Shown: positions 4,512 through 45,341 of the stretch, in pieces
Position numbering within the stretch: position 1 is the stretch's first letter
Layout: each line of letters opens with the position of its first letter
Source of the DNA: Clostridium sp. M62/1
Lineage (GTDB): Bacteria; Bacillota; Clostridia; Lachnospirales; Lachnospiraceae
Direction of reading: 5' to 3'
DNA length: 64,000 nucleotides
Assembly (NCBI RefSeq): GCF_020736365.1
Contig: NZ_CP085988.1
Coordinates: forward strand, 3,827,915 to 3,891,914
Program-made: the position numbers and the translations under genes
The notes under the pieces: model-generated
What the model was told of the DNA's origin: nothing
Database searches by the model: none
Seen by the model: only the letters and a program-made list of their open reading frames with translations

Positions 4512-4532
4512 GATCTCATTTCTATCAATTCC

Positions 4533-4645
4533 TCTTATTGCTCGATTTGCCGCTCATGCGGTTCCTCGCTCAGGCTGGCACCTTCCGTTTCTGCGGGGTT
4601 GCCGTGACTTCTCAGATCCTTTGTATCTCCATCACTCTGAATAAG
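4533..4645 (-). promoter_or_regulatory. SAM-I (S-box) riboswitch
   Basis: The minus-strand leader carries S-box landmarks in order: P1 strand CTTATT, TGGAG, GGATCTGAGAAGTCACGGCAA with the conserved GGCAACC core, AAGGTGCCAGCC (GGTGC motif), and closing P1 strand AATAAG. The P1 arms pair and the whole lies between a strong promoter and a terminator. The first conserved stretch departs a little from the consensus GAGGGA. SAM binding should favour the terminator and lower metK expression. Confidence 0.88.
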
Positions 4646-4681
4646 GGATATTACGCACTCTATGAATTTGCTGCGATATGT

Positions 4682-24409: not shown

Positions 24410-24432
24410 AGAAAAATACATAACCGTATTTT

Positions 24433-24560
24433 TGTTTCTTTCATCCGGACTGTACCGTTGGTATGGGGTTCCCACCCATTCTGCCCTCCAAAGGAAAGCT
24501 CGCGGACTCGAAGCCAAAGCTCATCACCGCCAGTGAGGAATTTCACCTCGCCCTGAAACA
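24433..24560 (-). promoter_or_regulatory. FMN riboswitch (RFN element)
   Basis: The minus-strand leader carries RFN landmarks in order: TGTTTCAGGGCGAGGTGAAA, TGGCGGTGATGAGC, GAGTCCGCGAGC, ACGGTACAGTCCGGATGAAA and GAAACA. The outer GTTTC/GAAAC arms form P1. The only clear departure is CACTGGCGG for the usual GACCGGCGG. FMN binding should cause termination before ribU. Confidence 0.95.
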
Positions 24561-24574
24561 GATTTTTCTACTAC

Positions 24575-39646: not shown

Positions 39647-39657
39647 TTCGCTGAAAA

Positions 39658-39741
39658 GAGGGAGCTCGTAGGCGGGCTGAGAGGAAGTAACCGAACTTCG
39701 ACCTTTATAACCTGATTTGGGTAATGCCAACGTAGGGATCA
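39658..39741 (+). promoter_or_regulatory. TPP riboswitch (THI element)
   Basis: Conserved blocks are in order: GGCGGGCTGAGAGGAAG with the CUGAGA core, ACTTCGACC, AACCTGATTTGG and GTAATGCCAACGTAGGGA. P1 is closed by GGAGCTC-side and AGGGATC-side sequences. TPP binding should favour the terminator downstream and reduce thiC expression. Confidence 0.97.
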
Positions 39742-39794
39742 TAGATGTGACATTTGTTTTTACAGGGTTTTATTTTGATTCTTCTGTCATTCTC

Positions 39795-43636: not shown

Positions 43637-43666
43637 CTTCCCTGTTTTCCTCGTATTATATAGTAG

Positions 43667-43880
43667 TAGTGTTTATAGACCCTCTCCAAGGTCTGTATGC
43701 TATACTGTTTGGAGATACTGTGGATTGGTTTCATTTTCCTACCACTTGATGGTTACGGAAAGGCTCCAACCACAGTCTCTTTGTATCGTTGTTAATCAGT
43801 TAGATACCGCATGACGGTTGATTTAGAACGAGGTTACAAGCGCAGAGAGCTCTGTGGTCCTAAACAGTATCTAAATCTAT
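43667..43880 (+). ncRNA. Candidate bridge RNA of the IS110 element
   Basis: The non-coding left end folds as three units. (1) An 8-bp 5' hairpin, 43674-43697. (2) A long interrupted stem GAGA-CTGTGG-TTGG (43712-43728) with CCAA-CCACAG-TCTC (43766-43779), enclosing a loop with TTTTCCT (43734-43740) and GGAAAGG (43757-43763). (3) A perfect 8-bp stem TTAGATAC/GTATCTAA (43800-43807, 43867-43874) enclosing a 59-base loop. This matches the target-loop and donor-loop order of IS110 bridge RNAs. The exact 5' and 3' ends are estimates. Confidence 0.8.
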
Positions 43881-43897
43881 TACTAAGGAGTGTTCTT

Positions 43898-45073
43898 ATG
43901 ATCTACGTTGGAATTGATGTCGCTAAGGATAAGCATGACTGCTTTATCACCAATTCAGATGGCAAAGTCCTTTTTCCGGTTTTTACCATTCAGAATAACC
44001 GGGATGGATTTGATGTTCTTTTTTCCAGGATTCAATCCTCTTCTTCAGATGTGTCCAATATAAAAGTAGGACTGGAGGCCACTGGACACTACTCTTACAA
44101 CCTGCTCGGTTATCTTATTGACAAAGGTCTCCACACCTTCGTTATCAATCCGCTCCACACAAATCTTTACAGAAAAAGTCTCAGCCTTAGAAAGACGAAA
44201 ACAGATAAGGTTGATGCCCGAACCATTGCTTTGATGCTCATGTCTGACGTGAACCTGAAGTCCTACTCAGATACATCATACCATAACGAGGAGTTAAAGT
44301 CACTCACCCGTTATCGTTTTCGTAAGGTTCAGGAACGCGCTCAGCTTAGACAGTCTGTTTCCAGGCTTGTTACCATTCTCTTTCCAGAATTGGAAAAACT
44401 TGTTCCTTCGCTTCATATCGCTTCTATCTACGCCCTTCTTTCCGAGTTTCCTTCTGCCGGAACGATTGCCTCCTGCCATTTGACACACCTGACGAAGCGG
44501 TTGGAAAACGCTTCAAAAGGCCGTTACAGCCGGGAGAAAGCGATTGAAATACGGAATGCTGCCAGAGCCTCCATCGGTTCCAACATGCCTGCCAAATCTC
44601 TGGAATTAAAGCACACACTCCGGCTAATTGGTGAACTGGATTCCGAAATCTCAGAAATTGAATCCGAAATCAAACGGATCATGGATGAAATCCATTCTCC
44701 CATCCTGACCATTCCAGGAATAGGCTACCGCATGGGCGCCATGATCCTGGCAGAGATTGGAGATTTCTCCCGCTTTGATTCGCCGGATAAGATCCTGGCA
44801 TATGCCGGAGCTTCTCCATCTACCTATCAATCCGGGCAGATGGAATCCTCTTATTCCCACATGGAGAAACGGGGATCGCGCTATTTACGTTTTGCTCTGA
44901 TCAATGCCACCAAATACGTCTGCCAATGGGATGAAACTTTCGGTGCATACCTTCAGAAGAAGATTTCTGAAGGGAAACACTACAACGTCGCCATCACCCA
45001 CGCCGCAAAGAAACTTGTACGGTTAATTTACGCAATGGAAAAATCCGGCAAACCTTACATAAAAACGGCATAA
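43898..45073 (+). CDS. IS110-family transposase (recombinase)
   Basis: A 391-residue DEDD recombinase. The N-terminal RuvC-like domain has D in YVGIDVAKDKHD, E in GLEATGHY and the D-x-x-D pair in KTDKVDART. A central coiled coil leads to the C-terminal Tnp domain with ILTIPGIGYRMGAMILAEIG, the likely catalytic serine in STYQSGQ, and KRGSRYLRFALINA. Both domains are intact, so the element may be active. ATG 43898 has AAGGAG eight bases upstream; the frame is open to 43811 but that part overlaps the bridge RNA. Confidence 0.95.
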   Translation: MIYVGIDVAKDKHDCFITNSDGKVLFPVFTIQNNRDGFDVLFSRIQSSSSDVSNIKVGLEATGHYSYNLLGYLIDKGLHTFVINPLHTNLYRKSLSLRKTKTDKVDARTIALMLMSDVNLKSYSDTSYHNEELKSLTRYRFRKVQERAQLRQSVSRLVTILFPELEKLVPSLHIASIYALLSEFPSAGTIASCHLTHLTKRLENASKGRYSREKAIEIRNAARASIGSNMPAKSLELKHTLRLIGELDSEISEIESEIKRIMDEIHSPILTIPGIGYRMGAMILAEIGDFSRFDSPDKILAYAGASPSTYQSGQMESSYSHMEKRGSRYLRFALINATKYVCQWDETFGAYLQKKISEGKHYNVAITHAAKKLVRLIYAMEKSGKPYIKTA

Positions 45074-45341
45074 CTTTTTCTGCCCTATAACACTCTTTTA
45101 GAGCACCGATATCCGATGCTCTGTTTGTCGTGCGATTTTCAAGGTACAACGATCTATGAAATGCGTTCCCGCAATTCATTCAAAAGTCTTCATTTTAGAC
45201 TTGACTTTTAATAGTTAGTCTTTCCTTTTTGTTTTTAATCTCTACATAGGGATATTATAAGCAAAAGGGATCCGGGGTTCAATGGGTTTGGGAAAGAAAT
45301 GTAAAAAATGTAAAGCAGGAATGCCGCCAGGCGCACCACCT

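Follow-up and report, generated by a model that had tools for sequence, protein, structure and literature searches.

According to the covered parts of the two reports on IS621, this insertion sequence carries a bridge RNA in its left end, and its joined ends provide a promoter (PMC11208160, PMC11208158). The catalytic residues of its recombinase are given as D11, E60, D102, D105 and S241 in the covered part of PMC11208158. The window analyzed here, a stretch of 64,000 nt from Clostridium sp. M62/1, contains an IS110-group element at 43650..45221 (+), both copies of a CT core included, which amounts to 1,570 bp when one core is counted. Its reading frame (43898..45073, +) encodes an IS110 DEDD recombinase of 391 aa that scored above the cut-offs of PF01548 (138.2 bits, cut-off 29), PF02371 (78.3, cut-off 21.3) and NF033542 (216.4, cut-off 140). 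A search of solved structures (E ≤0.001) matched two sequences, IS621 with 83.5 bits and ISCro4 with 77.6 bits (phmmer). Residues D7, E60, D103, D106 and S312 aligned, in this order, with the catalytic residues of IS621, assuming that the numbering of the structure chain is two higher than that of the paper. The recombinase domains and catalytic residues are intact in the predicted protein.

The borders of the element were obtained by comparison of occupied (L002, L003) and empty sites (L105, L107, L111), where CATTTTC-CT-TTCCG (empty) became CATTTTC-CT-CGTATTATATAG...TTAGT-CT-TTCCG (occupied). Because CT is the dinucleotide shared by both junctions, the element was delimited as 43650-45221 with a left core at 43650..43651 (+) and a right core at 45220..45221 (+); the core is CT, and insertion occurred without target duplication. 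A CC core and, later, a variable dinucleotide before CC had been considered as well and were ruled out in favor of CT by the empty repeats in the same genome. All covariation and gene-start counts below use the CT register. The left end measures 246 nt from the core to the ATG as compared to 146 nt from the stop codon to the core in the right end. Between the left core and the transposase start at 43898, a preliminary description had placed a structured RNA, and this position was borne out. The element is present at eight places in the genome, with 100% identity among them across 43652-45219 (1,568 bp). The left end was matched in 71 of 397 family genomes; the whole element was present only in its own genome among eight of the genus. 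The same genome also harbors a decayed relative (L009/L147, C1:2779580) with 86% identity over approximately the first 187 left-end bases, which is located after TAATCTCTCCT, a flank resembling a ribosome site.

For comparative analysis, 80 loci with a recombinase identity of 73-92% were used (81 including the window), mostly from Lachnospiraceae and other Clostridia; two stem from MAGs labeled Bacteroides sp. and Bacteroidaceae. The right end of the window element exhibits a -35-like box, TTGACT (45201..45206, +), and the left end a -10-like box, TATTAT (43654..43659, +), so that the joined ends of a circle would be predicted to form a TTGACT-17-TATTAT promoter. The spacing of this TTGACN-17-TATTAN arrangement was 17 in 74 of 79 readable loci and 20 in four, while one locus lacked TTGAC. 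In locus L012 the right end was recognizable and the sequence upstream of the transposase was unrelated, which may reflect rearrangement or misassembly.

The folding of the left end was investigated in an alignment of 70 rows (A1, window included). It omits L012, L032, L040 (together with L048, which is identical to L040) and the duplicates L025, L033, L046, L056-L058 and L069, and the boundaries of L016, L041, L079 and L089 were placed by hand. The computed fold energy of the window sequence was -68.2 kcal/mol as compared to -53.8 ± 4.5 kcal/mol in 200 shuffles (z -3.2). The 8-bp 5′ hairpin reported previously was found in the letters at 43674..43697 (+), where TATAGACC (43674-43681) faces GGTCTGTA (43690-43697) with one G-U pair. 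The hairpin is also predicted in relatives with altered letters (e.g., GTCC/GGAC, GCCC/GGGC) according to single-sequence folds. In a sub-clade (L023, L026, L028-L031, L042, L044, L049-L052, L061, L063, L064, L069, L073, L074) it is doubled in tandem, and left ends there span 289-299 nt with the core as compared to 238-265 in most others.

Downstream of the hairpin, a closing stem P1 would be formed by GATAC (43714..43718, +) and GTATC (43867..43871, +), with A-U replaced by G-C in 24 rows and U-A by C-G in one. It is predicted to enclose a target arm (43719..43774, +) consisting of P2 (43719-43723/43770-43774), P2b (43725-43728/43766-43769) and the apical P3 (43741-43744/43750-43753), as well as a donor arm (43777..43849, +) consisting of P4 (43777-43784/43842-43849) and the apical P5 (43806-43809/43815-43818). 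Double changes were observed in P2b (10, 3 and 5 rows), P3 (12 and 1 rows) and P4 (5 and 8 rows) and were absent from P2; P5 was almost invariant. The covariance check that the preliminary description had proposed thus revealed compensatory changes in the 70 left ends: both sides had changed in 9 of 30 pairs, with 69 cells as compared to 16.7 ± 5.3 after shuffling, a value reached in 0 of 500 shuffles. For further pair types, 42 of 500 shuffles reached the observed value. Across P1-P5, 99.1% of 2,084 cells were paired versus 96.4% in shuffled rows, a percentage that is favored by the structure having been drawn from the window sequence and the alignment, and versions of the structure slid along the alignment paired at 33-49%. 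RNAalifold recovered P1, P2b, P3, most of P4 and P5 unaided, and placed CCACAG with a 3′ CTGTGG instead of in P2. This alternative partner of the P2 3′ strand (43852-43857) was paired in 96.4% and showed no covariation; P2 likewise showed none. These data supported the predicted P1 stem together with the target and donor arms in the left end.

Two further stems described earlier fared less well. As for the interrupted stem, the segments CTGTGG-TTGG and CCAA-CCACAG are present at 43718-43728/43766-43775, but within the additional GAGA/TCTC, one pair was broken in 40 of 70 rows and another in 17 of 70. The 8-bp stem TTAGATAC (43800-43807)/GTATCTAA (43867-43874) around a 59-base loop is exact in its letters; as a structure it found no support, since pairing amounted to 90.0% versus 90.1% in shuffled rows and one pair was broken in 24 of 70. 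Its GTATC is assigned to GATAC 43714-43718 instead, and TTAGATAC overlaps the left donor guide introduced below. Overall, the observation was partly confirmed. A long stem of the minimum-energy fold, ATACTGTTTGGA/TCCTAAACAGTAT, was likewise discarded, as L041 (GACAC/GTGTC) and the rows with GATGC/GCATC fit the second GATAC copy by eye, not the first. A search of 43652-43897 against Rfam at gathering thresholds yielded no match. Elsewhere in the window there are FMN, TPP and SAM riboswitches (24429-24564, -; 39648-39755, +; 4532-4647, -). In the alignment, the left end of L032 is missing the target loop (LTG through RTG) and retains the remainder.

The target arm presents two candidate guide segments, a left target guide (LTG; CAUUUUC plus the core CU, 43732..43740, +) that equals CATTTTCCT at five of the eight copies and covaries with positions -7 to -1 of the left flank, and a right target guide (RTG; CGGAA plus AG, 43756..43762, +) that covaries with positions +1 to +5 of the right flank. 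These were the most variable regions compared, with pairwise identities of 0.52 for the seven non-core LTG bases and 0.49 for the five RTG bases; the stems reached 0.845-0.989, the left donor guide (LDG) 0.954 and the right donor guide (RDG) 0.877. The fit of LTGs to their flanks amounted to 548 matches as compared to 434 ± 10 after shuffling (64 unique pairs), and that of RTGs to 379 as compared to 273 ± 7 (60 pairs), neither value being reached in 20,000 shuffles. Nine of the 81 loci, in which no target loop was parsed (L012, L032, L050, L054-L058, L062), are omitted from these sets, as are L079, short flanks and repeated pairs. Among the 58 loci with both flanks, the LTG matched at 5/7 positions or more in 45 and at 4/7 or fewer in 13; the RTG matched at 4/5 or more in 43 and at 2/5 or fewer in three.

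Such a region could in principle be an untranslated leader or attenuator that controls translation of the transposase and guides nothing, as it is highly structured and sits just ahead of the ribosome site of the transposase. A leader, however, does not predict that the two loop segments vary most among the regions compared and covary with DNA outside the element, and we regard this reading as very improbable; a leader role on top of guiding would be compatible with the data. It was also conceivable that the recombinase protein picks the target and that loop and flank resemble each other through a shared preference for pyrimidine-rich CTCCTTT sites. Some likeness is indeed expected: among the 72 parsed loci, 53 have an LTG that terminates in CTCCT (CCTCCT in 28), with the RTG ending in AAAG in 47, and AGGAG, the complement of CTCCT, occurs within 8 nt of the core in 40 of 70 left flanks. 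But the shuffles, which keep this composition, never reached the observed fit. Because shuffling ignores relatedness, each locus was additionally compared with the different guide of its nearest-scaffold neighbor. The own LTG fitted better at 40 loci, worse at eight and equally at four (52 loci), and the own RTG better at 33, worse at two and equally at six (41 loci), although sign tests on these counts are approximate owing to shared history among neighbors and overlapping pairs. Elements with near-identical scaffolds and different guides thus mostly reside in sites fitting their own guide, which makes target choice by the protein very unlikely. For instance, L150, from another genus, differs from the window at seven left-end positions, three of which fall within or next to the LTG. 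The left flank of L150 carries TCATTCCTCCT, in letters equal to its changed guide. We conclude that the predicted target-loop guides are complementary to the element's own target.

The donor arm was examined for a corresponding relation to the element's own ends. The putative RDG (ACG-AG-G, 43828..43833, +) contains ACGAG, the complement of CT-CGT at 43650-43654, and readable rows displayed four covarying RD/RDG states (CTCGT/ACGAG, CTTGT/ACAAG, CTACT/AGTAG, CTGCT/AGCAG). L021 combines CTTGT with ACGAG and would need a G-T pair. The putative LDG (AGUUAGA, 43798..43804, +) resembles AGTTAG at 45213-45218 in the right end except for its last letter: in the window, the match is confined to AGTTAG, which is followed by a differing base and lacks a subsequent CU core. 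In relatives, AGTTAG occurs with AGTTAG, both read AGTTAA in six loci, and L076 is an exception. For L024 and L025, the LDG and RDG entries represent a misplaced pattern match, L012 and L050 have none, and L089 is without a left end. The LDG register is the weakest part of the bridge-RNA model. Together with the three mismatches out of 12 at the window's own insertion site, this imperfect donor match might be taken as a sign that the element is a decayed IS110 copy and that its bridge RNA has lost its function. Yet eight copies are identical over 1,568 bp with an intact reading frame and catalytic residues, and the LD and LDG letters, including the mismatch, are common to 60 loci, so that decay appears very improbable. 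That the element exists in eight identical copies and has a close relative with a different guide rather suggests that the bridge RNA would be functional. An IS1111-type (seekRNA) element, which belongs to the same recombinase superfamily, would have its guide RNA in the right end; here, the guides that covary with target and donor sit in the left end, the one analyzed for guides, leaving this assignment with hardly any probability.

The target consensus over 73 left and 65 right flanks is CCTC-CT-TT, which reads AAAGGAGG on the opposite strand, a Shine-Dalgarno motif. The anti-Shine-Dalgarno sequence CCUCCU constitutes the 3′ end of 16S rRNA. The 3′ end of the 16S rRNA gene was rejected as the target, as GGTTGGATCA was present in the last 40 bases of 0 of 70 left flanks. 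We observed reading frames on the minus strand that start at an offset of 8-18 from the core in 50 of 70 loci, several of which come from one genome at different sites, whereas none was seen in the other 20. ATG was the start codon in 43 of the 50, and offsets of 11-15 were the commonest. A reading frame had to comprise 50 codons or more, or 15 or more if open to the contig edge, and offsets were measured on the minus strand, starting at the first base of the core; 11 of the 81 loci (L012, L038, L060, L066, L069, L078, L079, L081, L083, L085, L089) were omitted because of a short flank, tandem ends or a missing left end. By comparison, such starts were found at 556 of 3,500 random flank positions, 99 of 322 internal CTCCT sites and 6 of 61 right flanks (binomial 2.9e-12 relative to the CTCCT rate). 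Pfam domains were detected in 14 of 19 tested adjoining frames (of 49 in relatives), the 19 being drawn from the first 20 frames of 150-450 codons with L032 omitted. The MatE-family gene beside the window copy has a Pfam domain as well; its ATG (43636) is separated from the core by the Shine-Dalgarno-like AGGAAAACAGGGAAG (43637..43651, -). After insertion, the gene retains the core-proximal AGGAG-like motif and the start codon and loses the upstream sequence. This aim of the clade at ribosome-binding sites goes beyond what the preliminary description saw.

The window element itself carries a variant guide, which reads CATTTTC-CT-TTCCG. There are four exact occurrences of this 14-mer in the genome, where equal-base arithmetic predicts about 0.03: three are the empty repeats L105, L107 and L111, and the fourth overlaps a repeat match. 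With one mismatch allowed, the 14-base target was found 16 times and a reversed control eight times. Over the 12 non-core positions, the numbers of mismatches to the guide at the eight insertions are 3, 0, 0, 1, 1, 1, 3 and 1; at the window's own insertion, with 3/12, the LTG fit ties with that of its neighbor L014. Five of the eight copies (L002-L006) reside in a palindromic intergenic repeat, and the other three, including the window's, in AGGAAAA or AGGAG sites, two of which precede frames of 451 and 496 codons. The repeat family (L092-L121; AATCCTGC..GCAGGATT, CCGCCTGCGGCGG, GCGA..) occurs in the element's own genome and serves as a landing site. The 71-base left part of the repeat was matched by 46 genome stretches, which include partial matches and reverse readings of the palindrome; among 20 of the 30 stretches retrieved, several were unoccupied. 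The pattern GCGACATTN{0,6}CCGCCGC retrieved nothing from the genome, though repeats of nearly that sequence exist with T and C in the spacer. As the close relative L150 has a CCTCCT guide, the guide that fits the repeat probably represents the derived state.

Two loci with different elements, L079 (1676-1850) and L089 (~1660-1850), showed a full left end directly after the initial part of another one that was cut at the CT core of its LTG. This resembles the outcome of an insertion into a sister copy's LTG DNA, the letters of which equal half a target; both loci are from MAGs, and assembly error is possible. One exact pattern for this arrangement was absent from 397 family genomes, 391 class genomes (some in both sets) and viral contigs, a search that diverged copies would escape, and a looser pattern was present in two of 178 loci (L079, L089).

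On the basis of these data we propose the following mechanism. Excision of a circle would join the right and left ends at CT and thereby create the TTGACT-17-TATTAT promoter, from which an RNA of ~210-230 nt, as judged from an inferred start and end, would be transcribed. This RNA is predicted to fold into the 5′ hairpin and a P1-closed junction with target and donor arms. On the left side of the core, the LTG would pair with the bottom strand; on the right side, the top strand would be read by the RTG. LDG and RDG would pair with the element's own joined ends, after which the recombinase would exchange strands at CT without target duplication. In most of the clade, the guide would read AAAGGAGG from the complementary strand and thus direct insertion into the ribosome-binding site of a gene; the variant guide of the window fits the palindromic repeat and would still tolerate some ribosome-binding sites. 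Ends, core, split promoter, stems and the covariation of guides with target and donor can be read from the sequences as such, and transcription, protein binding and catalysis are what we infer. The divergent bridge RNA of ~200 nt with target and donor loops that had been suggested earlier is supported by both kinds of guide covariation, the compensatory stem changes, the split promoter and the intact recombinase. We are therefore highly confident that the left end would encode an IS110-group bridge RNA and that the clade's guide usually reads the Shine-Dalgarno complement. With less certainty, we consider it likely that in this clade of Clostridia elements the target loop, with the anti-Shine-Dalgarno sequence CCUCCU in the LTG, evolved as a Shine-Dalgarno reader that aims at many gene starts and spares ribosome site and start codon, that substitution of a few guide bases shifts the aim, here towards a palindromic repeat, and that the LTG DNA itself is occasionally hit; such guides would explain the reported start-codon preference of IS900.

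The literature searched (most subscription papers and bioRxiv preprints lie outside its coverage) contained nothing, in the parts covered, on a connection between the guides of bridge RNAs and ribosome-binding sites. The terms "Shine" and "start codon" are both absent from the main text of PMC11208160, the covered parts of PMC11187229 do not treat ribosome-binding-site targeting, and those of PMC7823733 mention Shine-Dalgarno and IS110 and are silent on targeting. From sequence alone, a single clade displays both the choice and the change of targets, with variable guide letters in a nearly fixed scaffold. This suggests a mechanism for the old observation that IS900 is found at translation starts. 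Furthermore, natural guide pairs such as the window element and L150 are available for retargeting tests, and a recombinase family with guides reading ribosome-binding sites could help to choose new bridge recombinases.

Among known systems, IS900, an IS110-family element of Mycobacterium avium subsp. paratuberculosis, is a clear precedent for the target: as described in the covered parts of PMC8141618, its motif CATGNNNNNNTCTCCTT comprises a start codon and the Shine-Dalgarno complement in the same orientation. It differs in that its host belongs to another phylum and the covered parts offer no guide-RNA explanation; the likeness concerns the described motif. In the IS1111/seekRNA elements, an RNA likewise guides a DEDD recombinase to its target (PMC11187229, in part), but the guide RNA and longer sub-terminal inverted repeats, 7-17 bp in this group, lie in the right end (PMC11208160, in part), whereas the window's guides are located in the left end. 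IS621, as far as covered in PMC11208160 and PMC11208158, is alike in its 5′ hairpin followed by target and donor arms, in an LTG for the bottom and an RTG for the top strand with the CT core included, in a recombinase combining DEDD and serine residues, and in insertion into palindromic repeats. In contrast, the window recombinase is distantly similar to that of IS621 (phmmer 83.5 bits) and comprises 391 rather than 326 aa; a covarying P1 closes both arms here and is not described for IS621 in the parts covered; the LDG pairs over 8 nt in IS621 (PMC11208158, in part) and would pair over a shorter stretch in the window, stopping before the core; and the window's relatives aim at Shine-Dalgarno motifs. 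The predicted bridge RNA agrees with nearly all of the sequence tests applied and belongs to a known kind, to which the clade-wide aim at ribosome sites and the apparent retargeting by small guide changes add interest.
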